Part shown: in pieces, positions 1 to 16,045 of the stretch
Numbering within the stretch: position 1 is the stretch's first letter
Layout of the letters: every line of letters begins with the position of its first letter
Assembly (NCBI GenBank): GCA_029624735.1
Contig: JARSSM010000025.1
Location: forward strand, 1-64,000
Direction of reading: 5' to 3'
DNA from: Defluviicoccus sp.
GTDB taxonomy: Bacteria; Pseudomonadota; Alphaproteobacteria; Rhodospirillales; Defluviicoccaceae
DNA length: 64,000 nt
Notes under the pieces: model-generated
What the model was told of the DNA's origin: nothing
Database searches by the model: none
The model's input: the letters and a program-made list of their open reading frames with translations, nothing else
Program-made: the position numbers and the translations under genes

Positions 1-533
1 CCCGTGCCGTTGCCGGCGATGCGCTGCACCGCCTCGACCAGTTCGTGGTCATAGATGCGCCCATAGTCCGGGCCGGTAACGGCGCGCAGTTCAACGCGGC
101 CAGTGTCGGTCTCCAGCGTCTTGATCTGCTCGGCGCGGTTCGAGGTCAGGCCATATTGCAAATTGATGCCAGCAAGGGCGGCGGGGAGTTGGCGCAGATA
201 GGCCGCCGGGGCGCCGACCTGGGCCGCCAGCTGACCGAAGCTCCAGTGTGTCGGGGCCACCGGCGCTTCGGCCCCCGGCAGGACCAGCGACAGCCGCTCG
301 GGATCATTGCGGCTCGCCTCGACATGGATCAGCGCGGTTTCCACAACGCGGGTCCGGCTGCGCTCGGACCGATCGCGCACCGAGCGGGCTAACTCGCCCA
401 GCGACAGGAACCGCTCATCATCCGGCCTGGAAAACCACTCCGACGACACCCGGCCGACTCGCTCGCCGCGCGTGACATCCACCTTGTAACCGCCACCGAG
501 ATCGCGCCGGGCGTCGAGAACCTGCATGTTCAT
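1..533 (-). CDS. DUF932 (phage/plasmid-like) protein, 3' end cut by window edge
   Basis: This is an open frame reading leftward from ATG 533 with no stop before base 1, so only the N-terminal 177 residues are seen. The product starts MNMQVLDARRDLGGGYKVDV and continues through segments such as EWFSRPDDERFLSL and YGRIYDHELVEAVQRI. These are typical of DUF932 proteins, which are found on plasmids, phages and integrative elements. The biochemical role is unknown. It is transcribed away from the helicase/restriction operon, and its presence supports the mobile nature of this flank. Family assignment is from memory of the family's conserved segments. The rest of the gene is off-window. Confidence 0.8.
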   Translation of the reverse strand, partial: MNMQVLDARRDLGGGYKVDVTRGERVGRVSSEWFSRPDDERFLSLGELARSVRDRSERSRTRVVETALIHVEASRNDPERLSLVLPGAEAPVAPTHWSFGQLAAQVGAPAAYLRQLPAALAGINLQYGLTSNRAEQIKTLETDTGRVELRAVTGPDYGRIYDHELVEAVQRIAGNGT

Positions 534-626
534 GGGAAAATCTCCATGACGGGCGCCGAAAGCCTCTCTCTCGGCACTCCTCCCGTCACGGAAATCTGTT
601 CCGCACTCTCACTCTAACGGGGGCGT

Positions 627-645
627 TGCGGGGTCTCCCCCCGCA
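627..645. other. Small GC-rich hairpin upstream of the DUF932 gene
   Basis: TGCGGGG (627-633) pairs with CCCCGCA (639-645) across a 5-nt loop. It lies in the divergent intergenic region between the DUF932 start (533) and the ATPase start (791). There is no T-run on either side, so it is not an intrinsic terminator. It may be a leader structure or a protein-binding palindrome. Confidence 0.4.
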
Positions 646-735
646 GAAGGGGTCGGCCGAGACCACGGCTCGGACGCAGGGGAAGACCTTCCCCAACTCA
701 CTTCCGGAAAACTTGCGATACAAATCAGCGGCTCC

Positions 736-775
736 TTGACTACAAATTTGCCGAGGCAGATATTGCAAATCTGCC
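736..775 (+). promoter_or_regulatory. Putative promoter with overlapping inverted-repeat operator for the six-gene defence operon
   Basis: TTGACT (736-741) and GATATT (759-764) are separated by exactly 17 bp and read toward the ATPase gene starting at 791. An inverted repeat, GGCAGAT (755-761) and ATCTGCC (769-775) around a 7-nt spacer, covers the -10 box. That is the position expected of a repressor-binding site. No repressor gene is recognisable nearby, so the regulator is unknown. Nothing comparable is seen between the later genes, which suggests one transcript to 14402. Confidence 0.5.
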
Positions 776-790
776 GGAACCGGAGCGGGC

Positions 791-2011
791 ATGTACGAGC
801 GATTCGTTGAAAGGCGGGCGGAGGAGGCACTCGGGGACACTCCGGTCGTCTTGATCGTGGGGCCGCGTCGTGCCGGCAAGACCACGCTGGTCCGGAAGAT
901 GGGTGACGGTGATCGGACCTACAGCACGCTCGATGACCAGACCGTCCTTGAGGCTGCTCAATCTGATCCGGCTGGCTTTATCCGAGGGCTGGACCGCGCG
1001 ATTATCGACGAGATCCAACGCGCGCCGGATCTCCTGCTGGCGATCAAGAAGACAGTCGATGAAGATTATCGTCCCGGCCGTTTCCTGCTGACGGGCTCCG
1101 CCAATGTGCTGACCTTGCCGCGCGTCGCCGACAGTCTCGCTGGACGGATGGAAACGATCCGGATGCTGCCGTTGGCGCAGGCGGAAATCGCAAATCGGGC
1201 GCCGACCTTCCTGGAGCGTTTGTTCGAGGGGCGATTGCAGAGCCAGATGGAAAGCGTCGTAGGCGACGAATTGATCCAAACCGTTTTGCGGGGTGGCTTT
1301 CCCGAGGCGATTGGCCGCGAAAGCGAGCGGCGTCGGCAGGATTGGGCGCGTTCCTATCTCACCTCAATCCTGACCCGGGACCTGCGCGACATCGCCGAAA
1401 TCGAGAAGCTGACCGAACTCCCGAAATTCGTGCGGCTGCTTGCCGAGCATTCGGGGCAGCTCGTGAACTATTCCCAGCTTGCTGGCGGCATAAACGTCAA
1501 TCAGAGGACCGCCCATCGCTACGTTGGTCTGCTCGAACAGGTGTTCCTGATCGCAACCTTGCAGCCATGGTTCACCAATACGCTCAAACGAATCGTCAAG
1601 ACGCCCAAGCTGCATTTTCTGGACTCGGGGCTGCTGGCGGCTGCGCGTGGACTGACCTTCGACCGCATCAAGGCGGATCGCGGGCCGTTTGGCGCTCTGC
1701 TGGAAAGTTTCGTGTTCTCGGAGGTTCTGAAGCTGATGACAGCTTCAGATTTGCGTCTGACGCCACATCACTATCGCGACCGGGATACGCGCGAAGTCGA
1801 CATCGTGCTGGAACGCGATGACGGCATGGTCGCCGCCATCGAGGTGAAGGCTAGCGCAACAGTCAAGGCCGGCGACTTTTCAGGCCTACGAGCCTTGGCG
1901 GATGCCTGCGGAGATCGCTTCGCGTTTGGCGTGGTGCTTTACGATAGCACAGACGTCGTGTCCTTCGGCGATCGCCTGGCGGCGGCGCCGCTTTCGAGCT
2001 TGTGGGCGTGA
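791..2011 (+). CDS. AAA-family ATPase with C-terminal DUF4143 (restriction-nuclease-like) domain
   Basis: The 406-aa product has a P-loop at residues 24-32 (GPRRAGKTT), a Walker B region around RAIIDEIQRAP, and a C-terminal DUF4143 domain. The end of the protein carries a PD-(D/E)XK-like pattern: D337 in REVDIV, then E351 and K353 in AIEVKAS. Proteins of this family are common near mobile and defence loci, but their substrate is not established. A GGAG ribosome site precedes ATG 791. The gene ends 10 bp before the helicase start, making it the likely first cistron of the operon. Whether the nuclease-like triad is active here is inference. It could equally be a free-standing accessory ATPase. 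Confidence 0.85.
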   Translation: MYERFVERRAEEALGDTPVVLIVGPRRAGKTTLVRKMGDGDRTYSTLDDQTVLEAAQSDPAGFIRGLDRAIIDEIQRAPDLLLAIKKTVDEDYRPGRFLLTGSANVLTLPRVADSLAGRMETIRMLPLAQAEIANRAPTFLERLFEGRLQSQMESVVGDELIQTVLRGGFPEAIGRESERRRQDWARSYLTSILTRDLRDIAEIEKLTELPKFVRLLAEHSGQLVNYSQLAGGINVNQRTAHRYVGLLEQVFLIATLQPWFTNTLKRIVKTPKLHFLDSGLLAAARGLTFDRIKADRGPFGALLESFVFSEVLKLMTASDLRLTPHHYRDRDTREVDIVLERDDGMVAAIEVKASATVKAGDFSGLRALADACGDRFAFGVVLYDSTDVVSFGDRLAAAPLSSLWA

Positions 2012-2021
2012 GGACGCGCTG

Positions 2022-5000
2022 ATGAAAATCATCGACAACACGTCTTTGCTTCTCGGCGATGACCTCAAGGCGACGCTCGGACGTGGCGCTCGCCTCAAGA
2101 TCGCTGCTTCGTGCTTCTCGATCTATGCGTTCGAGGCGCTCCGCGCGGAGCTGTCCAAGGTGGAGAGCCTTCAATTCATCTTCACCGCGCCCACCTTTGT
2201 CCCGGTGGATGTGACGGACCGCCTACGCAAGGAACGACGCGAATTTTTCATACCCAAAGGGAGTCGGGAGCGCGGTCTCTACGGAACCGAATTCGAGATC
2301 CAGCTTCGCAATAAGCTGACGCAGCGTGCGGTCGCGCGGGAGTGCGCCGACTGGATTCGCAAGAAGGCACGCTTCAAGTCGAATACGACGAAAGCGCCGA
2401 TGCAACAGTTCGTCCACGCGGGCTCCGAAGCGGGCGATGTCGCCTATATGCCGATCAGCGGCTTCACGGCCGTCGACCTTGGTTATCAGAAAGGCGATGC
2501 CGTCTCCAACCTGGTCACGCGCATCGACGACGCCGCGCATACCCAAGTCTACCTGCAACTGTTCAATCAGATCTGGAACGACGAGGATAAGGTCAGCGAT
2601 GTCACCGCCGCCATTTGCGACCACATCGAGTCGGTCTACCAGGAGAACTCGCCCGAGCGGATTTACTTCCACATCCTCTACAATCTCTTCCAGGATTTTC
2701 TCGAAGAGGTCGATCAGGATGCCCTGCCTAACGACTTGACGGGTTACAAGGACAGTCTCGTCTGGAACAAGCTGTTTAACTACCAGCGGGATGCCGCGAC
2801 AGGGATCATCAACAAGCTGGAAATGCACAACGGCTGCATTCTGGCGGATAGCGTCGGCTTGGGTAAGACCTTCACGGCGCTTGCGGTGATCAAGTATTAC
2901 GAACTGCGCAATCGGTCGGTTCTGGTGCTGTGCCCGAAGAAGCTCGCGGACAATTGGCGCAACTACAACACCAACCTGACGACAAACATCTTCGCGAAGG
3001 ACCGCTTCAACTATGATGTCCTGAGCCATACCGATCTCTCGCGCACATCGGGCGAGTCCTTTGGCATCCCGCTGAACCGCGTCAACTGGGGCAATTACGA
3101 TCTCGTCGTCATCGACGAGTCGCACAACTTCCGGAACAACGACGTCTACAAGGACCGGGAGACCCGCTACCAGAAGCTGATGAACAAGGTCATCCGCGCC
3201 GGTGTGAAGACCAAGGTTCTGATGCTGTCGGCGACGCCGGTCAACAACCGGTTCAACGACCTGCGCAATCAGCTCGCGCTGGCCTATGAGGGGGATTCCG
3301 AGAACCTCAGCCGCAAGCTGAAAACCAAGACCGGGATCGAGGAGATTTTCCGGCGCGCTCAGAAAGCGTTCAACGCCTGGTCGGAATTGCCACCGCAGGA
3401 ACGAACAGCGGCTGCGATCCTGAAGGCCCTTGACTTCGACTTCTTCGAAATGCTCGACGCGGTGACCATCGCCCGGTCGCGCAAGCACATCGAAACCTTC
3501 TACGACACAAAGGATATCGGCAAATTCCCGCAGCGCCGAAAGCCTCTGTCATACCAGTGCCCGATCACCCATCGCTCCGACGTGCTCGGCCTCAACGACA
3601 TTTTCGCCAACCTCTCGGTGCTCAAGCTCGCAGTCTACGCGCCGATCAGCTACATCCTGCCAAGTCGGCTTCGGAAGTACGAAGAAATCTACGACACCCA
3701 GGTTGAGGGCGGCCGCGGCAAGCTGCGTCAGGCTGACCGCGAGCGGAGCCTCCAGGCTCTGATGACGACCAACCTTCTCAAGCGGCTGGAAAGCTCGGTC
3801 GAAGCCTTTCGGCTCACATTGCGCGCGCTGAGCGGCAACATCGCGCAGACGCTTCAGGCGATCGAGACCTACGAGCGCACGGGCGCCGCCGCGAGCGTCA
3901 CCGACCATCTCGGAGATCCGAGCTTCGATCCCGACGACGAAGATCTTGGCGGCCTCGACGAGTTCACGGTCGGCAAGAAGATTCAGATCAGCCTTGCGGA
4001 CATGGACCTGCCGTCGTGGAAGCACGACCTTGGCGCAGACCTCGCGTTGATCCGCGACCTTATCGTCTCGATGGACAAGGTCGGGCCAGAGGATGACGCG
4101 AAGCTTCAGCATCTGAAAACTCTCATCTCCCGCAAAGTCGATGGCCCGCTCAATCCCGGCAACAGGAAGGTCATCATCTTCACGGCCTTCGCGGACACGG
4201 CCAAGTACCTCTATGCCAACCTGGCCGCGGCGTTCCTCCAGTCGCACGGCCTGCACAGCGGCATGGTGACCGGCTCCGACGCGCCTAAGAGTACGCTGAA
4301 AAAGACCTATGACTTTCAGTCTTTGCTGACGCTCTTCTCGCCAAGGTCAAAGGACAAGCAGTTGATCCTGCCAAACGAGGCTGGCGAGATCGACATCCTG
4401 ATCGGGACGGACTGCATTTCCGAAGGGCAGAATCTTCAGGACTGCGACTATCTGATCAACTACGACATCCACTGGAACCCGGTGCGCATCATCCAGCGCT
4501 TCGGCCGCATCGACCGTATCGGGTCGCCCAATGCGCAAATCCAGCTCGTCAACTACTGGCCCGAAATCTCGCTGGACGAATACATCAATCTCAAGGAACG
4601 CGTCGAAAACCGCATGATGATCGCCGACGTCACGGCGACCGGTGATGACAATGTGCTGACCGCCAAGAGCAGCGACATCGCTTACCGGAAGGAACAGCTC
4701 AAGCGCCTCCAGGAGGAGGTGATCGAGCTGGAGGATGTGCGGGCCGGGGTCTCCATCACCGACCTCGGCCTCAACGATTTTCGCATGGACCTCTTGAACC
4801 ACATCAAGGAACACGGCGACCTTGAGCATTTGCCTAACGGCATGCATGCGGTGGTGCCAGCGCAGTCGGCGCTGGGATTGAAGCCAGGCGTGATCTTCGC
4901 GCTCAAGAACATCCACGACAGCGTGAACATCAATCAGCAGAACCGGCTGCACCCCTATTACCTCGTCTATGTCGGTCACGACGGTGGGGTCATCATCGAC

Positions 5001-5294
5001 CATACCGAAGTGAAGCGCTTGCTCGATCTGATCCGCACGAGCTGCAAGGGGCAGGCGGAACCGATCCGGGCGGTCTGCCAGCTGTTCAATGCGCGGACGC
5101 AGGACGGTCGCAAGATGGAGCAGTGTTCCGCGCTCTTGAGCGCCGCGATCCGCTCGATGATCGAGGTCAAGGAAGAGAAGGACATCGATAGCCTGTTCAG
5201 CGGCGGCCGGACCACGGCGCTGGTCCACACGATTGCGGGCATCGACGATTTCGAGCTGGTCGCTTTCCTCGTGATCGAGGAGGCGGCCACATGA
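2022..5294 (+). CDS. SNF2-type superfamily II helicase with degenerate PLD-like N-terminal domain
   Basis: The 1090-aa product carries helicase motifs: Walker A GLGKT (residues 279-283), DESH (365-368), MLSATPVNN (motif III), and motif VI QRFGRIDRIGS (825-835). The N-terminal 200 residues resemble the phospholipase-D-like domain often fused to such helicases, for example SGFTAVDLGY followed by VYLQLFNQIWND. However, the HxK nuclease signature is replaced by FVHAG, so that domain is probably catalytically dead. ATG 2022 is preferred over an upstream in-frame start at 1902 because 1902 lies inside the preceding gene and the product aligns from MKIIDN. It overlaps the DUF4391 gene by ATGA. Likely role: DNA translocase of the defence operon. 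Confidence 0.85.
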   Translation: MKIIDNTSLLLGDDLKATLGRGARLKIAASCFSIYAFEALRAELSKVESLQFIFTAPTFVPVDVTDRLRKERREFFIPKGSRERGLYGTEFEIQLRNKLTQRAVARECADWIRKKARFKSNTTKAPMQQFVHAGSEAGDVAYMPISGFTAVDLGYQKGDAVSNLVTRIDDAAHTQVYLQLFNQIWNDEDKVSDVTAAICDHIESVYQENSPERIYFHILYNLFQDFLEEVDQDALPNDLTGYKDSLVWNKLFNYQRDAATGIINKLEMHNGCILADSVGLGKTFTALAVIKYYELRNRSVLVLCPKKLADNWRNYNTNLTTNIFAKDRFNYDVLSHTDLSRTSGESFGIPLNRVNWGNYDLVVIDESHNFRNNDVYKDRETRYQKLMNKVIRAGVKTKVLMLSATPVNNRFNDLRNQLALAYEGDSENLSRKLKTKTGIEEIFRRAQKAFNAWSELPPQERTAAAILKALDFDFFEMLDAVTIARSRKHIETFYDTKDIGKFPQRRKPLSYQCPITHRSDVLGLNDIFANLSVLKLAVYAPISYILPSRLRKYEEIYDTQVEGGRGKLRQADRERSLQALMTTNLLKRLESSVEAFRLTLRALSGNIAQTLQAIETYERTGAAASVTDHLGDPSFDPDDEDLGGLDEFTVGKKIQISLADMDLPSWKHDLGADLALIRDLIVSMDKVGPEDDAKLQHLKTLISRKVDGPLNPGNRKVIIFTAFADTAKYLYANLAAAFLQSHGLHSGMVTGSDAPKSTLKKTYDFQSLLTLFSPRSKDKQLILPNEAGEIDILIGTDCISEGQNLQDCDYLINYDIHWNPVRIIQRFGRIDRIGSPNAQIQLVNYWPEISLDEYINLKERVENRMMIADVTATGDDNVLTAKSSDIAYRKEQLKRLQEEVIELEDVRAGVSITDLGLNDFRMDLLNHIKEHGDLEHLPNGMHAVVPAQSALGLKPGVIFALKNIHDSVNINQQNRLHPYYLVYVGHDGGVIIDHTEVKRLLDLIRTSCKGQAEPIRAVCQLFNARTQDGRKMEQCSALLSAAIRSMIEVKEEKDIDSLFSGGRTTALVHTIAGIDDFELVAFLVIEEAAT

Positions 5295-5998
5295 CGGCAG
5301 CCTTCTTCGACTATCCCAAGGCGGCCTCATTCGGTCGTGTCGTCCCCAAAAACCGGATCTATGAGCACGCCGGCGCCGGCACAGCGCTTCGGGACCTGTT
5401 CGTCACCCAGGTCGATCAGATCGTCTGGAAATACAAGCTCGCGCCGGAAACGACGAACCTCGCGGCGACGAAGGCCGTCAGCGAAATCCAGGTGTTCGGC
5501 ATCAGCCTGCGCACCGGCAAGCTCGACGACGACGTGTTGCGGGCCATCGATCGCGCAATTCCGTTCCCTTTGATCTTCGAACTCAGCTGGTCCGGGAAGC
5601 GCAAGGCGGTGGGCGCCTTCAAGCGGCCGAGCGAGGCGGACGCCACTAAGTGGGTTGTCAGTGCGTATTTTGCCACCGATTGGGCGCCAGACGATGCGCC
5701 GCGTCGGCCGCTGCCGGTCGCGCTCAATCTCGGCGGCCTCTACGACGCCCTCATCACGGCGCTGATGCCAGAGGTCGCCGCCGAAGCGGATCACACCGGC
5801 GAGGACATCCAGACACGCGTGGCGCGGATGGAGGCGATCCGGTCCAAGGCGCGGGAGGTGGACCGGATCAAGGCCCGCCTGGCTCGCGAGAAGCAGTTCA
5901 ACAAGCGCGTGGCGATCAATGCCGAGCTGCGCGCCGCACGGCAGGAACTGGAGCGCCTATCCGGCGCCGCTCCCGTCGGTGCCACGACGAATGAGTAA
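5291..5998 (+). CDS. DUF4391 domain protein
   Basis: The 235-aa product has the DUF4391 pattern: VPKNRIYEHAG near the start, then VDQIVWKYKLAPETTNL, SEIQVFGISL and IDRAIPFPLIFEL. The C-terminal 60 residues are highly charged and likely form a coiled coil (REVDRIKARLAREKQFNKR). DUF4391 has no established biochemical function that I know of. It is typically found beside SNF2-type helicases and Type III methyltransferases, as here. Start ATG 5291 overlaps the helicase stop (ATGA), implying translational coupling and suggesting a stable partner protein of the helicase. It could act as an adaptor between the helicase and the Mod-Res enzyme, but this is inference. Confidence 0.85.
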   Translation: MTAAFFDYPKAASFGRVVPKNRIYEHAGAGTALRDLFVTQVDQIVWKYKLAPETTNLAATKAVSEIQVFGISLRTGKLDDDVLRAIDRAIPFPLIFELSWSGKRKAVGAFKRPSEADATKWVVSAYFATDWAPDDAPRRPLPVALNLGGLYDALITALMPEVAAEADHTGEDIQTRVARMEAIRSKAREVDRIKARLAREKQFNKRVAINAELRAARQELERLSGAAPVGATTNE

Positions 5999-6008
5999 GG
6001 GAATGACG

Positions 6009-7982
6009 ATGGAAAAGCTAAAGATGCACAGCCCTGACCTGAGCCAGGAGAACATCGCGAAGATCCGCGACCTGTTCCCCGGCTGCGTGACGGAGGCGCG
6101 CGACGAGGCGACGGGGCAGCTGCGTCTGGCAGTGGACTTCGATCAACTGCGTCAGGAGTTGAGCGACCATATCGTTGAAGGACCGCATGAGCGTTATCGG
6201 TTGGACTGGCCCGGTAAGCGGGAAGCGTTGGCCGTAGCGAACGCCCCAATCAACAAGGCACTCCGCCCCGTTCCGGACGAGAGCTTTCAGTTCGAAGCGA
6301 CCAAGAACCTGTTTATCGAAGGCGATAACCTTGAAGCACTCAAGCTCATCCAGGACACTTATCTTGGACAGATCAAGCTGATCTACGTCGATCCTCCCTA
6401 CAACACCGGAAAGGATTTCATCTACCGCGACAGCTTTGCCGCAGATCAGAATACCCATGAAATTGCCTCAGGCGAACGAAGCGAAGAAGGCGCACGCCTG
6501 GTTTCGAACCCTGAGGGCAATGGTCGTTTTCACTCTAACTGGCTTACCATGATCGCGCCACGCCTCAGGCTGGCCAAGAACCTTTTGAAGCTTGATGGGG
6601 CAATCTTCGTATCCTGCGATGAGGGTGAACAGCCGCGGCTACGTCTGATCATGGACGAGATTTTCGGTCAGTCCAACTTCGTCGCCGACATGGTTTGGGC
6701 GGCCGGGCGCAAGAACGATTCGCGGCTGGTTTCGGTCTCGCACGAATACATCGTTTGCTACGCACGCGATTCAGAATACCTGCGCGAGAACGGGGTGACT
6801 TGGCGGCAGCGCAAAAAGGGTCTGGACGAAATCTATGCGCAATATGAGCGGCTAAAACGCCAACACGGAAACAACTTCAAGGCGATGACGGAGGGAATGA
6901 AAGATTGGTATCGGTCGCTGGCCGATAGCCATCCTTCGAAATCCCACAAGCATTATGCGCACGTTGATGGGCGAGGTATCTATTTCCCGGATAATATTTC
7001 TTGGCCGGGGGGTGGCGGTCCAAAGTATGAGGTGCTTCATCCAAGTACCAAAAGACCAGTGAAGGTGCCCTCACGCGGCTGGATGACAAGCGATCCGAAG
7101 CGCATGCAGGAGTGGATCGATGACGACCGTGTTCATTTCGGGGACGATGAAAATTCAGTGCCTTGCATCAAAAGCTATTTGAAGGACAAGGAGGTCCAGA
7201 CGCCATATAGCGTGTTCTACCAAGACGGCCGCGCCGCCTCGAAACGCTTGCGGGCGCTTATGGGCGGTGACCTTTTCGACTTTCCCAAGGACGAGTTGGT
7301 TCTCCAGGAGGTCATCGAGATGATGACCGATAACAGCGATATCATACTCGATTTTTTCGCGGGGTCGTCGACTACGGCGCATTCGGTGATGCTTCAGAAT
7401 GCGAAAGACGGCGCTAATCGTAAATTTATCATGGTCCAGCTGAATGAGGCGACGGCTGAGGACTCGGAGGCATACAAGGCCGGCTTCAAGACGATTCCAG
7501 AGGTCAGTCGCGAACGCATACGCCGCGCAGGCAAGCAGGTGCTTGACGGCGAATGCCACGTAAAATGGAACCGGGATGTCGGCTTCCGGGTCCTCAAGGT
7601 CGATACGTCCAATATGCAGGACGTCTACTATCGCCCGGACCAGGTCGATCAGAGGGACCTGCTCACCGCCGTCGATAACATAAAGCCCGACCGTACCCCT
7701 GAGGACCTGCTGTTCCAGGTGCTCGTTGATTGGGGTGTGGATCTGACGCTGCAGATCCGACGCAAGACGATACACGGCAAGACCGTGTTCTTCGTGGACG
7801 GAAATGCGCTGGCAGCCTGCTTTGAGACCGGGGTGACGGAGGAACTCGTGAAGGAGCTTGCCGGCCGCGAGCCGCTGCGCGTCGTGTTCCGCGACAATGG
7901 TTTCGTGTCCGACGCCGTGAAGATTAACGTCGAGCAGGTCTTCCGCCAGGTCTCTCCCGGCACCGACGTCAAGTCGATCTGA
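6009..7982 (+). CDS. mod: Type III restriction-modification DNA methyltransferase (Mod)
   Basis: The 657-aa product is a beta-class amino-methyltransferase. DPPY (residues 128-131, motif IV) precedes the SAM-binding DFFAGS (448-453, motif I), the order typical of Type III Mod subunits. The segment between these motifs should hold the target recognition domain. ATG 6009 is chosen because AAGGGA sits 6 bp upstream; ATG 6003 and ATG 5991 are in frame alternatives, the latter inside the DUF4391 gene. Mod would methylate N6-adenine in an asymmetric site and supply site specificity to Res, whose gene begins 10 bp downstream. The central part (roughly 6700-7200) is noticeably AT-richer than its flanks, as expected of an exchanged recognition domain. 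Confidence 0.93.
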
Positions 7983-7992
7983 GGGGGCGACC

Positions 7993-10900
7993 GTGAAGCT
8001 GAAATTCAAGGTCCAACCCTACCAGACGCAGGCGGTGACCGCGGTCGTGGACTGCTTCGCCGGGCAGCCGATGTCGAACGGTATCACCTACCGGATCGAT
8101 CCCGGCCGGAAGGCGCAGACAAGCGCCTTCGAGGAAGGGTTCAAGAACGCCGATCTGGCGCTGACCGAGCTTCAGGTGCTTGCCAACATCAAGGATGTCC
8201 AGAGTCGCCAGAACCTGCCCGTTTCCGACAAGCTGGTCGCCAACGCTGGCTGCCGGATCAACCTCGACATCGAGATGGAGACGGGGACCGGCAAGACCTA
8301 TTGCTACATCAAGACGATCTTTGAGATGAACAAGCGCTACGGCTGGTCGAAGTTCATCATCATGGTGCCGTCGATCGCCATCCGCGAGGGCGTCCACAAG
8401 TCGCTGCAGATCACCGCCGACCATTTCACCGAGAGCTACGGAAAGAAGGCGCGCTTCTTCATCTACAATTCCAAGCGGCTGCACGAGCTGGAGAGCTTCT
8501 CGTCGGACGCCGGCATCAATGTGATGGTCATCAACATCCAGGCGTTCGCGGCCCGCGGCGCCGACAATCGACGCATCTACGAGGAGCTGGACGACTTCCA
8601 GTCGCGCAAGCCCATCGACGTGATCGCCAGCAACCGGCCGATCCTGATCCTCGATGAGCCGCAGAAGATGGAGGGCGCGGCCACGATGGAGGCGCTGCCG
8701 AAGTTCAAGCCGCTTATGATCCTGCGCTATTCGGCCACCCACAAGACGCAGCATAACCGCGTTCACCGGCTCGATGCGCTCGACGCCTATAACCAGAAGC
8801 TGGTGAAGAAGATCGCGGTCCGGGGCATCCAGACGCGCGGGCTCGCCGGCACCAACGCCTACCTCTATCTGGAGGGAATCGAGATCTCGAAGAAGGCGCC
8901 GGTGGCGCGGATAGAGATCGAGGTGAAACTCGCGAGTGGCGAGATCAAGCGTCAGCTCAAACGATTGGAGTTCCGCGACGACCTGTTCGCAAAGTCCGAA
9001 GAACTGGACCAGTACCGCGACGGCTTCACCATTTCCCAGATCGATGCGCGCAACGACACGGTCGAGTTCACCAATGGCGTGGTGCTGCGCGCCGGAGAGG
9101 CAACGGGCGACGTGTCCGAGCGCGACATCCGGCGCATCCAGATGCGCGAGACGATCAAGGCGCATCTCGACAAGGAGAAGCAGCTCTTCGCGCAGGGCAT
9201 CAAGGTGCTGTCGTTGTTCTTCATCGACGAGGTGGTGAAGTACCGCGACTATGCGCAGCCTGACGAGAAGGGCGAGTATGCCCGCGTGTTCGAGGAGGAG
9301 TACGAGCTTCTCAAGGCGGAGTATCTGGCTGAGTTGGCGATCGATAACGAAGCCTACCGCAAGCACCTGTCGGGCATCGATGCGGCCAAGACGCACAACG
9401 GTTATTTCGCGATCGACAAGAAGACCAACCGGCTGAAGGATCCCGCCGTCGGGGCGAGGTCAGTCGATTCAGACGACGTGGACGCCTACGACCTGATCCT
9501 GAAGGACAAGGAACGGCTGCTGTCCTTCGCAGAGCCGACGCGGTTCATCTTCTCGCACTCCGCGCTGCGTGAAGGGTGGGACAGTCCCAACGTCTTCGTC
9601 ATGTGCATGCTCAAGCACAGCGACAATACCGTTTCGCGGCGCCAGGAAGTGGGCCGCGGGCTGCGGCTGTCGGTCGATCAGAACGGCGATCGCATGGACA
9701 ACCCGGCAGTGGTCCACGATATCAACGTGCTGACCGTTGTCGCGAGCGAGAGCTACAAGAACTTCGTCGCCGGCCTACAGAAGGAAATCGCCGACACGCT
9801 GACCTCTCGGCCGCGCAAGGCGAGCGAGGCGTATTTCACCGGAAAAACGATCAGTACAGATACAGGCTCGATCGAGATCACGCCGGCCATGGCGAAGCAG
9901 ATCTACCGCTACCTCGTGAAGAACGACTACTCCGACGACACGGATCAGATCACTAGCGCTTACCATCAGGCGAAGGAATCCGGAAGTTTGGCGGCTTTGC
10001 CGGACGAGCTGAAGGCGCACGCCGATCAGATCTTCCAGATCATCGACAGCGTATTCAGCGACGCGCAGCTGCCGAAGGTGGAGGACGGCCGCAAGCCGAA
10101 GACCAATCCGCTCAATGAGAATTTCGAGAAGAAAGAGTTCCAGGAGCTCTGGCGACGCATCAATCAGAAGGCCGTCTATCGGGTCGAATTCGACTCCGAC
10201 GAGTTGGTTCGCAAATGCGTGAGCGCGCTCGATAGTCAGCTTCGCGTGACGCCGCTCCAGTACACGGTCCAGACCGGCATCCAGGGCGACGGGCTGACCG
10301 ATGAGCAGCTCAAGGCGGGTGATGGGTTTGCCCTTACAGGCTCAACGACCGAGCGCGGAGGATCAGTCCATTCGCTCGTGAAATATGACCTCCTCGGGAA
10401 GATCGCCGAAAACACGGAACTCACGCGCAAAACCGCAGCCGAGATTTTGACGGGCATCCAGGCCAGCGTGTTCGGACAGTTCAAGGAGAACCCCGAGCAC
10501 TTCATCGCCGAGGCATCGCGGATCATCGCCGAGCAGAAGGCGACGATGGTCATCGAGCGGCTGGCCTATGACGGGCTGTCCGAACGCTACGACGTCGACA
10601 TTTTCACCGCGAACCAGACCGGCCAGGACTTTTCCAAGGCGTCGGCCAAGCTCAAGCGGCACGTCTACGACTACGTGGTCACCGACTCCGAAATCGAGCG
10701 CAAATTCGCAGACCAGCTCGACGTTGCGAGTGAGGTCGTGGTTTACGCCAAGCTGCCGCGCGGCTTTCTGATCCCGACACCAGTGGGCGACTATAACCCC
10801 GACTGGGCGATTTCCTTCAAGGAGGGACGCGTTAAGCACATCTACTTCGTCGCGGAGACCAAGGGCACCATGTCCACGATGAAGCTCCGCGAGATCGAGA

Positions 10901-11031
10901 ACACCAAGATCGCTTGCGCCCGGAAGTTCTTTGATGAGATCGGTCAGCGTGTGTCCGAGGATCGGGTCAAGTATGACGTGGTTACCAGCTATGAGAAGCT
11001 CATGGATATTGTGGGGCGCGCTGCCGCATAG
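7993..11031 (+). CDS. res: Type III restriction enzyme Res subunit (helicase-endonuclease)
   Basis: The 1012-aa product shows Walker A ETGTGKT (residues 96-102), a DEPQ motif II (221-224), YSATH (motif III), REGWD (motif V region) and [11 protein letters not shown] (549-559, motif VI). A C-terminal PD-(D/E)XK site is visible: D937 in NPDWA, E955 and K957 in VAETKG. Start is GTG 7993 behind a GAGGGGG site. The protein would use ATP hydrolysis to move along or diffuse on DNA and cut when two Mod-bound sites communicate. Length and motif order match the family, and nothing appears truncated, so the Mod-Res core is probably functional. Confidence 0.93.
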
Positions 11032-11057
11032 AATGAGAGGGGTCCGCGTCGCGTTGG

Positions 11058-14000
11058 GTGGCGGTGGTATCGATCGCTGACTGGATCGGCCCACAAGGCT
11101 TGGGGGGTAAGGTGCCAGTCGTCATTTGGCAGGGAACGATCACACTTCCGGCGCTGCCGCTTCGCAAGAAGCGGATCGGCGGCAATCTCGTCGCGCAGCA
11201 GTTGTTTCTTGGCGCGACGTGCAAAGCGCAGGTCTTCGCTAGCGACGTCAAGGGTCATGACCTGATCCGCACCAATCTCACCGGGCCCTATCGAGAGCTG
11301 TTCCTACGGCGCAAGGCAGCGCGGCGTCGACCCGATGCGGTCCCAGCAGTCACATGCGCGGAGGACGGAGACGCCGCCGACTGGTCCGAGTTCATATCGG
11401 TCTCCTGGGACGTTGGTGCAATGGATAGCTATTGCGCCACGCCCGACGAGGTGCGGTCAGCGTGGGCCAACCAGTTCGACTTCCGGGAAGAGGACGAAGA
11501 AGCCGGGCACGCCGGCCTGCGGACGCCGCAGATCGGCGCACTGCATGCTATCTCCGCGCACTTTGCCGTCGGTAAGGAGTTTGAGCCCGCGACCGTCGTG
11601 CTGCCTACCGGGACGGGAAAGACCGAGACCATGTTGGCAACGCAAGTCTATAGACGGCTAGGCCGTTCGCTGGTCCTCGTGCCGAGCGACGCGCTAAGAT
11701 CACAGATCGGCGGCAAATTCACGACGCTCGGCGTGCTGCCGGACGCGCAGGTATTGCCGCGCGAGGTCGCGCGACCGTGGGTTGCGCAGATCAGTCGTGG
11801 CCTCCGCTCCGCGGAGGAAGCACAAGCGCTGCTCGACGCCGCGAACGTCATCGTCGCGTTGCCCAACGTACTCGAAGCATCGGATCCCGACGCTGTCACC
11901 GTCCTGGTCGCCGGCTGCACCGACCTGATCGTCGACGAAGCGCATCACGTTACGGCTGACACTTGGAATGCGATCCGCGATCGCTTCAAGGAGAAACGCG
12001 TCCTCCAATTCACTGCCACGCCGTTTCGCCGCGACGGTAAGCGCATCGATGGCAAGATCATTTTTAACTACAAACTCGGCGATGCCCAGGCAGCCGGCTA
12101 CTATCGGCCGATCACGCTGAGGACCGTCGAGGAGTACGGCGACGACGACGCGCGCGACCGCGCTATCGCCGAGGCCGCCATTACCGTTCTGCGGCGCGAC
12201 CGTGACGAACTCGGCCTTGACCACCTGCTGATGGCGCGGACTCGCAGCAAGGAGCGCGCTGAAAGCGTATCGGCGATTTATGCCGAACTGGCCCCCGATT
12301 TGAAGCCGGTGGTCGTCTATTCCGGAGCCGGACGCACGCTCATCAATCGCGAGGCGCTCGCGAACGTTTTGGATCGCGGTGCAGACGGATCGCGCATCGT
12401 TGTCTGTGTCGACATGCTCGGCGAAGGGTTCGACCTCCCGAATCTCAAAGTCGCAGCGCTCCACGACGCTCACAAGTCGCTCGCGATCACGCTTCAGTTC
12501 ATCGGGCGCTTCACGAGAAAGGGGGCCTGGGGCGAGATCGGCGAAGCGACCGTCGTGGCCAACATCGCCGATCCGAGCGCCGAGAAGAAGCTGGCGAGCC
12601 TCTACGCGGAGGGGGCCGACTGGGATCAGCTAATCCGTCGGCTGAGCGAGGATCGCATTGGCACTGAGCTGCGACTACAGGAGGTGGTAATCGGGCTCAA
12701 GGAGACGGGCGACCTCGGCGCGCAGCTATCACTCTGGAATCTGAGGCCAGCTTTGTCGGCACAGTTCTTCCGAACGACCTGCGTCGCTTGGACGCCGCTC
12801 GCCTATCAGACGGTGCTGCCGGCCAGCGCCGAGAGTTGGTTCGCATACCATCAGGCCGAGAATGTATTGGTGGCGGTCGTGCGCCGCGCGGCGGACGTGA
12901 ACTGGGGAAACTATCAGAACGTCCTCGATACGATCTACGATCTGCTCATCCTTCGCTGGGACCAAAAGGCCGGCGTTCTGGCGCTCTACGCAAGCGATTA
13001 TAACGCGCTTCGTTCGGAGAAGATGGCCGCGGCGGTGACCGACGACGCTACCAAGCTAGTCGCGGGGACCCCGATCTTCAATATCTTGAACAACGTCGAG
13101 CTTCCGCTGGTGAAGAGCCTCGGCTCAGCCCGGATTGGCGCGATCAGTTTCACCTCCTATTTCGGTCCGAACGTGACGGAGGGGCTGGCGAACATTGAGA
13201 AGGCGGAGGCCGAGCTGAACAACATCGCCTGTCTCGGTTACGAGGATGGTGAGCGGGTACTCTGGGGCGGAACGCAGCGACGAGGCAAGATTTGGCAGGC
13301 CAAGGCCGGTACGGTATCGGAGTGGATGGAATGGACCGCCTCGACTTGGGCAAAGGTCACCTCTGAGGACGAGCTCGGTACCAACATCACCCGCGACTTC
13401 TTGCGACCACAGCGAATGGACGGGCCGCACGCCTCCCATCCGATCGCGGCGCAGTGGGGCGAGCAGGCGCAGATGCGCCTAGGAGATCGTCAGTCGATCA
13501 TCTTTGGTACCGCTGAAATCCCGCTGATCATGGTCGACCTCGATGTTGTGGGCGTGGAGGCGGATGGCGCTATCGCGCTGAGGCTCAGCGCGGACGGATT
13601 GTCGTCAGACTATCGCTTGACGATCTCGCAGCATTTGCCCGGCGGCTATTCGCACCAACATGTCGCCGGACCGGAAGTCCTTTTCCGTAAGTCGCGCGAC
13701 GAAGCGCTGCCGCTGGCAGATTACCTGCAGAAGGATCCTTTCATCATCCGCTATGCCGACGGGACTTACTCCTACAATTGCTACCATATCTCCGCAAATC
13801 TTGCGGCCGGAGCTTTCGATAGGGAGCGGCTTGAGGCATGGGACTGGACAGGCATCCCACTCAACAGGGAGTCGATGCACAAAGCGCGCGATCAGGCCAC
13901 GATCCAGTTTCGAACCTATGAGAGGCTGCGCGACGAGTACGACGTTGTCTTCAATGACGACGGGCATGGCGAGGAAGCGGATCTCGTCTGCCTCAAGGAC

Positions 14001-14402
14001 ATCGACGAGGCGACGATTCGGCTTTGTCTCGTCCATTGCAAGGGCGCGCATGGCGGCCACGTCTCGCAGGATATCCGCAACTTTTACGTTGTCTGCGGCC
14101 AGGCGCAAAAGAACATCACCGCCAAGCACAAAGGCTTGCCGCGGCTCTACCAAGACTTGAAACGACGGCATGACGCCTGGGCCAGGGAGGGGGCCTCGCG
14201 CTTTCTGAAGGGCGACATGAAGGCGCTGGCCTATTTCAAGGACAAGGCACGCCGATCGAAGCTGCAGTTTGAAGTGATCTTGGTCCAGCCGGGAGCGTCA
14301 CGCCAGACCGTTACCGACGACAGTCTACGGCTCCTCGCAACTACAGAGCTTTATCTCATGAAGACGACGGAAGCCGCGTTTCGCGTGATCGTGTCCGCGT
14401 GA
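11058..14402 (+). CDS. DEAD/DEAH helicase with C-terminal VHCK putative nuclease domain
   Basis: The 1114-aa product has PTGTGKT (residues 183-189), DEAH (293-296), FTATPFRRDG (motif III) and QFIGRFTRKG (480-489, motif VI). After a long unassigned middle region, the C-terminus carries EEADLV (D975), then LVHCK (992-995 for VHCK) and VCGQAQK. I have seen this VHCK/VCGQAQK segment at the end of several helicase-like proteins. It resembles a PD-(D/E)XK arrangement with H in place of E, but nuclease activity is inference. The GTG start at 11058 is uncertain because the nearest purine-rich site (11035-11042) is 15 bp away. It closes the operon, 26 bp after res. Confidence 0.8.
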   Translation: MAVVSIADWIGPQGLGGKVPVVIWQGTITLPALPLRKKRIGGNLVAQQLFLGATCKAQVFASDVKGHDLIRTNLTGPYRELFLRRKAARRRPDAVPAVTCAEDGDAADWSEFISVSWDVGAMDSYCATPDEVRSAWANQFDFREEDEEAGHAGLRTPQIGALHAISAHFAVGKEFEPATVVLPTGTGKTETMLATQVYRRLGRSLVLVPSDALRSQIGGKFTTLGVLPDAQVLPREVARPWVAQISRGLRSAEEAQALLDAANVIVALPNVLEASDPDAVTVLVAGCTDLIVDEAHHVTADTWNAIRDRFKEKRVLQFTATPFRRDGKRIDGKIIFNYKLGDAQAAGYYRPITLRTVEEYGDDDARDRAIAEAAITVLRRDRDELGLDHLLMARTRSKERAESVSAIYAELAPDLKPVVVYSGAGRTLINREALANVLDRGADGSRIVVCVDMLGEGFDLPNLKVAALHDAHKSLAITLQFIGRFTRKGAWGEIGEATVVANIADPSAEKKLASLYAEGADWDQLIRRLSEDRIGTELRLQEVVIGLKETGDLGAQLSLWNLRPALSAQFFRTTCVAWTPLAYQTVLPASAESWFAYHQAENVLVAVVRRAADVNWGNYQNVLDTIYDLLILRWDQKAGVLALYASDYNALRSEKMAAAVTDDATKLVAGTPIFNILNNVELPLVKSLGSARIGAISFTSYFGPNVTEGLANIEKAEAELNNIACLGYEDGERVLWGGTQRRGKIWQAKAGTVSEWMEWTASTWAKVTSEDELGTNITRDFLRPQRMDGPHASHPIAAQWGEQAQMRLGDRQSIIFGTAEIPLIMVDLDVVGVEADGAIALRLSADGLSSDYRLTISQHLPGGYSHQHVAGPEVLFRKSRDEALPLADYLQKDPFIIRYADGTYSYNCYHISANLAAGAFDRERLEAWDWTGIPLNRESMHKARDQATIQFRTYERLRDEYDVVFNDDGHGEEADLVCLKDIDEATIRLCLVHCKGAHGGHVSQDIRNFYVVCGQAQKNITAKHKGLPRLYQDLKRRHDAWAREGASRFLKGDMKALAYFKDKARRSKLQFEVILVQPGASRQTVTDDSLRLLATTELYLMKTTEAAFRVIVSA

Positions 14403-14488
14403 GTCCTCCGTCCATACGGCAAAAATCCGCAGCTGTAGAGACTAACTTTAATCCGAACCTTTGTCTGCAAGACCTCTGGGCTATATCG

Positions 14489-15760
14489 CTAGGCCACTCG
14501 CCTTTCACGCGGCTGCGTGAGCGCTGCTTCATCTTCATCGAGCAAAGCGGCGATTTTCTCACAGGTCCGTGTAACCGCGAGTTTCAACGCTTCGTCTACA
14601 TGAACGTATCCCTGGGTAACGCTCTGGGCGGCATGGCCGAGGAGCGCACGGATCGTGAGTTCGGAAAAGCCCAGATCTCCAGCAACGCTGCCAAATGTGT
14701 GGCGAAGCGTATGCGGCGTTACGCCGACGATGCCTACGCTCGCACAAAGCCGGGCCAGGCAAGCTTTCGCTGCGGTGAAATGTCCGTCGCCGACGTCGGC
14801 CGGAAATATGTACGGGCAGCCCTTCCGAAGCGGCTGGCTGACGGCAAGTTCCGCCGCAGCCTCACCGATCGCACGGATCTGGGCGTCTCCTTTGGTGTCC
14901 GGGAAACTCACATAGCCGGCATCGGCATGGAGCCAAGGGCGCTGAAGGCCCTGCCCTTCAGATATACGGAAGCCGGTAAGGAGCAGGAAACGGACAATCG
15001 CAAGGCCGACGGGATGTTCCCCGTTGCGCGCCGCGTACCGCATGGCGACGCCAAGCTTCTTGATCTCGACCTCGCTCAGGCGTCGCGTCTTCTTTTTGCT
15101 GGCCAGCTTCCTGGCGCCACGGCTGGGATGGCTTTCGATCTTGTCGAGCCGCGCGGCGTGACCGAGAATGCTCTGCAAGGTCGCGACGGCGCGAGACGCG
15201 ACGCCAGGGCCACCCGTTATGGCGCCCCCGCGCCCGCCGCCCCTTGGCTTCGCCGTCTTGCCCGCAACGATATTGGACTGCATTCCTTCGATGTCGACCA
15301 CCTTCAAGGTGTGCGCAAGCCGGGCGCCGAGCAGCGGCTTGATGTGTGTCTCGATTCGACTTTTATCCATGGCGAGCGTCGATTTCTTGATCGGTCGATT
15401 GCGGCGGCCGAGGATGCGGCCCGCCTCAGCCTCTGCGAGATACCAGTCGCACAGGTCAGCCACGGTCGCCTCCTGACGGGGATTTTCCTCTGGCTCGGCA
15501 GGGTCAGCCCCGGCCGCGATCATGCCGAGCTTGATCATGGCCTGATCGCGAGCTTGCTCGACCGTCATTACGCCGAAGCGACCGAGATTAATGCGCCGCT
15601 CTTTGTCGGCAGCATTTCGGTAATTCAGCACGAAGGTCTGGAGGCCGGAAGGAAGCATGCGAACCCCGAAACCGCGCAGTTCGCTATCCCACAGGAACGC
15701 CTGCTTGCCCTTCGCAGGGGGCTTCATGGCCTCAACCGCCCGCTTGGTAAGTTTGGCCAT
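14489..15760 (-). CDS. Tyrosine site-specific integrase of the island
   Basis: The 423-aa product is a DUF4102-type phage/island integrase. The N-terminal arm-binding segment (MAKLTKRAVEAM, then LRGFGVRMLPSG) precedes a core domain and catalytic domain with R265 in TGFRISE, HTLR (350-353) in HTLRHTF, GH in LLGHAAQSV, and nucleophile Y385 in TQGYVHVD. ATG 15760 follows GGAGGAGCGT; an upstream in-frame start at 15781 is less likely. The gene lies 199 bp from the tRNA-Gly fragment and reads away from it, the usual layout for islands that enter tRNA 3' ends. All catalytic residues are present, so excision may still be possible. Confidence 0.93.
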   Translation of the reverse strand: MAKLTKRAVEAMKPPAKGKQAFLWDSELRGFGVRMLPSGLQTFVLNYRNAADKERRINLGRFGVMTVEQARDQAMIKLGMIAAGADPAEPEENPRQEATVADLCDWYLAEAEAGRILGRRNRPIKKSTLAMDKSRIETHIKPLLGARLAHTLKVVDIEGMQSNIVAGKTAKPRGGGRGGAITGGPGVASRAVATLQSILGHAARLDKIESHPSRGARKLASKKKTRRLSEVEIKKLGVAMRYAARNGEHPVGLAIVRFLLLTGFRISEGQGLQRPWLHADAGYVSFPDTKGDAQIRAIGEAAAELAVSQPLRKGCPYIFPADVGDGHFTAAKACLARLCASVGIVGVTPHTLRHTFGSVAGDLGFSELTIRALLGHAAQSVTQGYVHVDEALKLAVTRTCEKIAALLDEDEAALTQPRERRVA

Positions 15761-15958
15761 ACGCTCCTCCTCCGACGGCAATCGACGATTTTGCTGACAA
15801 TAGCATGCTCAGACCGCCGTTGTCAGCAAATTGTCAGCAGGAGAAGGGAAATCAGGGGGTAATTGACGGCTATGATCGGCGGACGGAATCCGATAAAGAT
15901 CATTTATTATAGTAGGATAGCGTGCTGTAGGATATTCTGGCGTAGCGCCTTCTCTATC

Positions 15959-16003
15959 TTGCCAAGGTTGAAGTCGAGGGTTCGAATCCCTTCGCCCGCT
16001 CCA
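15959..16003 (+). other. Island attachment site: 3' fragment of tRNA-Gly(GCC)
   Basis: The 45 bp begin with TTGCCAA, which fits a glycine anticodon loop with GCC. They continue through the 3' anticodon stem, variable region, T-arm (GGGTTCGAATCCC) and acceptor strand CGCCCGC, then T and CCA. The matching 5' acceptor strand GCGGGCG is absent; upstream sequence only weakly resembles an anticodon stem. The fragment is what remains when an integrase recombines inside the anticodon loop of a tRNA gene. The intact tRNA-Gly should lie at the other island end, left of this window. Confidence 0.8.
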
Positions 16004-16045
16004 GCGGCCGTGGTCCATGCGTGCTCTTGCTGACTTGAGTCGATC

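Follow-up and report, generated by a model that had tools for sequence, protein, structure and literature searches.

A recurrent Type III restriction variant with a four-gene core and exchangeable passenger genes, carried on a Defluviicoccus island

We analyzed a stretch of 64,000 nucleotides from Defluviicoccus sp. (GenBank assembly GCA_029624735.1, contig JARSSM010000025.1, positions 1 to 64,000), referred to here as the window, in which six co-directional open reading frames (ORFs) on the plus strand are arranged around a Type III restriction pair. Gene 1 (791-2011) and gene 6 (11058-14402) are the outer genes. Between them lie a long SNF2-family ATPase of 1090 residues (gene 2, 2022-5294; Pfam SNF2-rel_dom and Helicase_C), a DUF4391 protein of 235 residues (gene 3, 5291-5998; PF14335, 192.6 bits with the whole model covered), the Type III methyltransferase Mod with an exchangeable centre (gene 4, 6009-7982; PF01555 N6_N4_Mtase, PADLOC MTase_III), and the Type III helicase-endonuclease Res, which starts at GTG (gene 5, 7993-11031; ResIII and RE_endonuc, PADLOC REase_III). 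The junctions between the six ORFs measure, in order, 10, -4, 10, 10, and 26 bp, in agreement with a preliminary description of this DNA. We conclude that the locus is a real and recurrent four-gene variant of Type III restriction, formed by genes 2 to 5 and accompanied by exchangeable passengers; it is new as a variant and built from known parts.

Mod and Res match their PADLOC models over the full length, with scores of 717 bits for MTase_III and 1131 bits for REase_III, respectively. As expected of a Type III system, Mod is a beta-class N6/N4 methyltransferase, with DPPY at residue 128 and the AdoMet motif FFAGS at residue 449, and Res joins an SF2 motor to a C-terminal PD-(D/E)XK nuclease, with GTGKT at residue 98, DEPQ at 221, PDW at 936, and ETKG at 955. 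The pair is thus intact, as had been claimed. The claim of one visible promoter for the six genes is weak: positions 500-16000 contain two sigma-70-like sites, including one upstream of gene 1 at 736-764, against 3.3 ± 1.6 in shuffled sequence.

A profile-derived scan of named species genomes returned 392 DUF4391 relatives, and the gene order was read for the best 80 of the 392, which were picked by likeness to the window and include some metagenome bins. The core begins with the long SNF2 ATPase, followed by DUF4391, Type III Mod, and Res. Within these best 80, the SNF2 ATPase stands directly upstream of DUF4391 in 79/79 readable loci, and Mod lies downstream of DUF4391 in 79/79. A script had scored five of the 80 as lacking the ATPase, owing to an overlong call of the DUF4391 ORF; inspection of the gene order shows the ATPase there. 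Res is present in 70/80 loci. The other ten contigs stop within 0.9 kb, nine of them before Res is reached and that of L077 866 bp past mod without res. An overlap of 4 bp joins the ATPase gene to the DUF4391 gene in most loci (69 of the 74 measured). According to their records, the 80 loci come from seven phyla, with Pseudomonadota contributing 67.

Because these loci are biased toward likeness to the window, a second set was chosen by Pfam family alone. DUF4391 was matched in 9/317 genomes of the order and in 11/385 genomes of the class. This gave 16 loci over the cut-off in addition to the window; where the contig reaches, they have the ATPase in 15/15, Mod in 15/15, and Res in 13/13. Three weak matches below the cut-off were excluded from the 16: G275 holds a decayed core with a shortened ATPase, no full DUF4391, and whole Mod and Res; G392 has a DUF4391 fragment adjoining Mod and Res; and the weak match in G588 has nothing nearby. 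Conversely, the class sample contains nine strong ATPase matches (>500 bits, window included, at most two candidates scored per genome), and eight of them adjoin DUF4391. The ninth, in G410, is a 1465-residue fusion whose first ~680 residues resemble gene 2. Its locus (L197, contig C22, 6009-12553) comprises a WYL gene, the fusion, and a DpnII/MboI-type endonuclease gene beside it; DUF4391, Mod, and Res were not found within the 19 kb read. Judged by gene order and content, the ATPase, DUF4391, Mod, and Res form one unit. The outcome that the preliminary description had named as speaking against a unit, in which only Mod and Res co-occur, is contradicted by the co-occurrence of the ATPase and DUF4391 with them. 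The gene-order conservation that it had looked to for support extends over many genera for the helicase-DUF4391-Mod-Res core and does not extend to all six genes (gene 1 in 5/80 loci, gene 6 in 0/80).

Co-divergence was assessed as correlations of pairwise distances over 54 rows, with significance from 999 permutations. The correlation coefficients were 0.89 for ATPase and DUF4391, 0.89 for ATPase and Res, and 0.86 for DUF4391 and Res, and 0/999 permutations were as high. The constant ends of Mod correlate with the partners at r = 0.65-0.66, whereas the Mod centre (residues 200-500) gives r = 0.03-0.07. L010 is the closest relative: it shares 99% identity with the window in the ATPase and in Res, and its Mod is 88-100% identical at the ends and only 30-55% identical over residues 241-520. 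These comparisons show a joint divergence of the ATPase, DUF4391, and Res that the constant ends of Mod follow. We read the Mod centre as the target-recognition part, apparently exchanged while the other partners stay put.

The association was also followed on a quickly built tree of 50 selected Res proteins, in which long branches leave the deep order unsure. In clade A, to which the Res of the window belongs, the core is found in 32 of 34 rows, including the decayed copy of G275. Both exceptions are nested inside the clade: the ATPase and DUF4391 are missing from one, whose mod is split, and the other has no mod up to the contig end. In L162 (G350, contig C12), Res is whole, mod is split in two frames, the ATPase and DUF4391 are gone, and a Schlafen/AlbA cargo gene is kept. 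The divergent Res group B is likewise accompanied by the ATPase and DUF4391, and plain E. coli mod-res loci fall with B on an open fork.

Three lineages of the core are present in E. coli. The first is chromosomal and occurs in 54 genomes, including CFT073 and ABU 83972; the second occurs in 10 genomes, in nine of them on a plasmid; and the third occurs in 24 genomes, one of which has an ATPase fragment only. A distant search for the ATPase found 88 of 5,426 E. coli genomes, equal to the sum of the three lineages. Some of these copies are broken by insertion sequences. The core often resides on mobile elements, namely plasmids, including non-mobilizable IncFIB plasmids of ~115 kb, and the present island. 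One example from the 115-kb class is the E. coli IncFIB plasmid NZ_CP101235.1 (L005), which carries the core at 3254-12300 with dnaE and a 5'-3' exonuclease gene nearby; we take plasmids like this one to be possible phage-plasmids of the SSU5 kind.

Two positions inside the core accept additional genes. Gaps exceeding 300 bp separate DUF4391 from Mod in 14/79 loci and Mod from Res in 18/70, and at least one such gap is present in 24/80. On a FastTree tree of the ATPase, the minimum number of changes is at least 10 for the occupancy of each slot, eight for the Schlafen/AlbA gene, and three for the upstream DUF4143 gene; the YhcG count on this tree was set aside, as one ORF (L084) had received that label from its length alone. 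Families of the cargo were assigned from one or two members per blastp cluster. The Mod/Res slot holds a Schlafen/AlbA ATPase (a cluster of 13, one on a plasmid), a DUF1016/YhcG nuclease (a cluster of six) is also among the slot cargo, and the DUF4391/Mod slot holds an OLD-type nuclease with DUF2130 or a UvrD-like helicase. A SIR2-HerA pair lies downstream of Res in three loci, and the same two clusters occupy the DUF4391/Mod slot of L073. E. coli copies ~92% identical to the CFT073 type carry in the DUF4391/Mod slot either a gene with an ATP-binding domain (L107) or a nuclease with DUF2130 (L108); the CFT073 type itself (L099) has a hypothetical gene on the opposite strand alone in that slot. 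Other genes downstream of Res include a GajA-like gene, Mrr, and DUF4357, and WYL regulators lie upstream of the core (a cluster of 21). Not all gaps hold cargo of this kind: those of L032, L036, and L075 contain small ORFs only, L083 has a second Mod-like ORF, and the DUF4391/Mod gaps of L088 and L089 need not be cargo because most ORFs there are on the opposite strand. Two slot genes have no Pfam match, one of 634 residues in L089 (13902-15803, which also has no PADLOC match) and one of 286 residues in L069 (10671-11528), and both are candidate new defence genes. The slots represent a systematic place to look for such genes.

The outer genes of the window behave differently from the core. 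Gene 1 encodes an AAA_14 and DUF4143 ATPase (PF13173, PF13635) that matches the full length of the PADLOC model PDC-S01 (AAA + DUF4143) with 570 bits over residues 1-406. It occupies the upstream slot in only five loci (L010, L013, L014, L016, and L033), where it is 81-98% identical. Farther upstream, a gene on the minus strand at 3-533 is truncated by the contig start and has no Pfam match. Gene 6, which starts at GTG and occupies the downstream slot, is a stand-alone DEAD/ResIII helicase (PF04851, PF00270, PF00271) whose C-terminal part is of no kind recognised by Pfam beyond the helicase domains. No orthologue was found in the 80 core loci, with ~5 kb beyond Res in view where contigs allowed. 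Gene 6 homologues occur in 162 plasmid records, 49 of them covered over at least 80%, and the three plasmid contexts that were opened show single genes. Of the 317 genomes of the order, 35 have a match at E ≤ 0.001, the best besides the window scoring 119 bits over residues 697-1111. Identification of gene 6 as a known enzyme was rejected, as its matches are too weak: none in PADLOC exceeds 28 bits, and the best solved structure (E = 5e-4) is a putative helicase matched in the helicase part only. Genes 1 and 6 look like interchangeable passengers, since the same flanks hold other defence genes in other loci.

The six genes lie within an integrated island, as had been claimed. A tyrosine integrase gene (14489-15781, minus strand; Arm-DNA-bind_3 and Phage_integrase) follows them, and the right end of the island is the attachment site, a 47-bp 3' part of tRNA-Gly(GCC) at 15958-16004 on the plus strand. 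Synteny with G067, a genome of the same genus without a DUF4391 match, begins at 15958 and continues rightward for 6.4 kb at 95% identity; at this point the tRNA-Gly(GCC) is intact in G067, and the window retains its final 47 bp only. The other island flank, with an intact tRNA-Gly, is on contig C20 of the genome from which the window comes, where genes for VirB8, CagX, TrbI, and LysR (L210, 59-3829) lie between the contig end and the tRNA. These conjugation genes are probably the other end of the island. Because of the integrase, the tRNA-Gly end, and the VirB8, CagX, and TrbI genes near the intact tRNA, the element is probably an integrative conjugative element whose two contigs are unjoined in the assembly. 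Between 1 and 16 kb the GC content per kilobase is 0.55-0.65; farther on, almost every kilobase lies at 0.61-0.72, with a single dip to 0.575 at 39-40 kb.

In an alignment of the ATPase, GLGKT and DESH are invariant in 81/81 rows and QRFGRIDR is nearly so. Among sequences with solved structures, those nearest to it are chromatin remodellers and RapA. Gene 2 also matches the PADLOC model C3a139 'HKD+Snf2' (420 bits), over residues 167-1084 only. The 'PLD-like' label given to it earlier is not upheld: Pfam finds no PLD domain in gene 2, the candidate H is kept in 52/81 rows without a conserved HxK after it, and a faint resemblance to a PLD pattern within residues 1-220 was rejected because the 81-row alignment gives it no support. 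DUF4391 was modelled with a pLDDT of 88 as an alpha/beta part followed by a C-terminal helical hairpin, and both parts contain invariant residues. Foldseek searches of PDB and BFVD with this model gave no match at E ≤ 0.001. Its best VIA-align match has Z = 7.2 over 57 residues, and the matches cover the C-terminal helical hairpin, which is a common arrangement; a profile search of PDB sequences reached at best E = 0.18.

It is possible that the ATPase and DUF4391 act as a remodelling motor that serves Mod and Res on the same DNA, a mechanism that we infer and for which we consider the chances evenly balanced. In this model, Mod2Res would recognise unmethylated asymmetric sites, and ATP would switch Res on, as in EcoP15I. 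DUF4391 would position the SNF2 ATPase through its C-terminal helical hairpin, and the ATPase would act as a double-stranded-DNA remodelling motor on the DNA engaged by Mod-Res. The motor may clear nucleoid proteins, RNA polymerase, phage anti-restriction proteins, or other proteins bound to the DNA, and it may also, or instead, prolong or extend cutting once Res is engaged. Restriction would thereby become less dependent on two facing sites or a clear track, and the site-specificity part of Mod could be swapped with its partners unchanged.

In favour of this model are the conserved gene order in both sets of loci, the frequent 4-bp overlap of the ATPase and DUF4391 genes, the correlated divergence, the exchange of the Mod centre in L010, the invariant motor motifs with remodellers and RapA as nearest solved sequences, and the near-constant presence of the core in Res clade A. 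Several observations weigh against this motor model. Correlated divergence is equally expected for genes that are merely co-inherited. Res is also less faithful than the other members, in that nine of the 17 class genomes with a clear Res match have DUF4391 and eight do not, and plain Mod-Res without the ATPase and DUF4391 is common elsewhere and evidently sufficient there. The structure model of gene 2 has a pLDDT of 45 and is unusable, and DUF4391, to judge from its predicted structure, is without a recognisable fold relative. The m4C Type III systems Eco86II and BspHIV have an extra helicase-like ATPase 5' of mod; methylation is reported to have proceeded without the extra ATPase, and partly purified Eco86II gave partial cutting with no ATPase peptides detected by mass spectrometry (Murray et al. 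2021, PMC8259958). If these results are transferable, the ATPase would be dispensable for cutting in vitro.

The main rival is that two systems share one Mod: an ordinary Mod and Res, plus a Res-independent effector of SNF2 ATPase and DUF4391, DISARM- or Hma-like in its logic, that spares Mod-methylated DNA. The preliminary description had offered two stacked systems as one reading, and for the four-gene core this reading may hold in that form. We regard the shared Mod as unlikely, if the best of the alternatives. Consistent with it, the ATPase scores against DISARM DrmD (155 bits) and HmaA (84 bits), and Mod-Res is common by itself; in addition, the fusion in G410 retains part of the ATPase next to another endonuclease gene, and the motor is therefore re-usable by another nuclease. 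However, the DrmD and HmaA scores are far below family level, the DrmD cut-off being 610. Moreover, every readable DUF4391 locus with sequence past Mod has Res, except the short contig end of L077, and the divergence of the ATPase and DUF4391 is closer to that of Res than to that of the constant Mod ends.

Alternatively, the ATPase and DUF4391 could be a licensing or safety module that restrains Res until an incoming plasmid, ICE, or phage-plasmid has methylated its host, or that dismantles Res stalled on host DNA. Stopping and clearing is a recognised activity of SNF2-type proteins, and the core is frequent on mobile elements: plasmids, including the IncFIB plasmids of ~115 kb, and the island described here, whose opposite end carries conjugation genes. 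This explanation is distinctly improbable, as plain mod-res moves on islands without either gene, neither protein has a regulatory domain, and upstream WYL or HTH genes already offer regulation. That all six genes make one system is very improbable and was rejected: despite the tight junctions on a single strand and a gene 1 whose divergence follows the core where it keeps its place, gene 1 is absent from all but five of the 80 core loci and gene 6 from all of them, none of the opened plasmid contexts of gene 6 relatives contains the core, and other defence genes fill the same flanks elsewhere.

Returning to the motor model, a broader proposal is that the core represents a distinct Type III class with four obligate subunits, in which the SNF2 motor and DUF4391 would be true partners of Mod and Res, and fixed internal slots would load whole defence systems onto one regulated transcript. 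We hold this tentatively, at slightly less than even confidence. Type III enzymes have been studied for decades as two-gene machines; if the two extra genes are conserved subunits, an SNF2 remodelling motor would serve restriction in many bacteria. If the proposal is true, one regulated transcript would deliver a site-specific cutter together with changing second-line weapons. The four-gene form gives DUF4391 a testable role, and the core is found in accessible E. coli strains.

One of the known systems closest to the core is Type III restriction of the EcoP1I/EcoP15I kind, which methylates one strand of an asymmetric site and cuts 25-27 bp away from two facing sites. The likeness consists of an adjacent and ordered Mod and Res, each bearing the domains and motifs typical of its family, whereas two more conserved genes are present here upstream of mod, and canonical E. 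coli mod-res loci lack both.

Eco86II and BspHIV are similar in that an ATPase lies 5' of mod-res as it does here. Their variant is present in more than 500 genomes, and its ATPase is of SF2 type with no recognised nuclease motif (PMC8259958). However, that ATPase directly precedes mod on the 5' side, at a distance of 140 bp in BspHIV, and 'DUF' appears nowhere in the text of the paper, whereas in the window DUF4391 stands between the ATPase and Mod. A second, shorter SNF2 family of ~950-970 residues, ~30% identical to gene 2 over motor parts of at most ~290 residues, lies directly 5' of mod in L212 (7910-17309; 185 genomes). Further loci of this family have cargo between their genes, with Abi_2 and AIPR in L211 (6741-16530) and GmrSD in L102 (1744-11653) and L172 (2188-11675). 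E. coli NCTC86, the host of Eco86II (NZ_LT601384.1), does not appear in any of the three complete E. coli lists for the gene 2 ATPase, which cover close relatives only; nor is it among the matches listed for the shorter family (60 of 251 distant and 60 of 185 near), which decides nothing. Because NCTC86 is absent from the gene 2 lists and the shorter family is directly 5' of mod, the published ATPase is probably the shorter SNF2 family and different from gene 2. The preliminary description had known of no characterised system with this composition. This holds for the DUF4391 form within open-licence papers, and it does not hold for an extra ATPase 5' of mod, which was published in 2021 (PMC8259958). 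In the open-licence literature, DUF4391 was found named merely in a domain list of an unrelated study (TM7x hosts), and no paper on the DUF4391 form was found. A small HTH gene precedes both SNF2 families (L211, 6554-6754; L111, 8249-8413) and is named 'MAD1' in RefSeq, after the methylation-associated defence system; it is probably a shared type of regulator rather than a sign of that system.

DISARM is similar in combining an SNF2 motor and a methyltransferase within one locus. However, gene 2 falls well below the DrmD cut-off, and neither DrmB (DUF1998) nor any other Drm protein was found among the PADLOC matches of seven window proteins, the sole DrmA signal being a weak cross-match to the helicase of gene 2 (66 bits).

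Finally, the slots recall Type I operons with embedded defence genes, such as TgvAB in Vibrio cholerae and DarTG2 in enteropathogenic E. coli (EPEC), described in PMC11411939 and PMC12255303, which also cite a 'guilt-by-embedding' preprint (Payne et al. 2024). Nested defence genes are thus an already recognised theme, to which the novelty claimed for the composition does not extend. In both cases complete defence genes lie between the subunit genes of a restriction operon, whereas the host operon here is a four-gene Type III system with its slots at DUF4391/Mod and Mod/Res.

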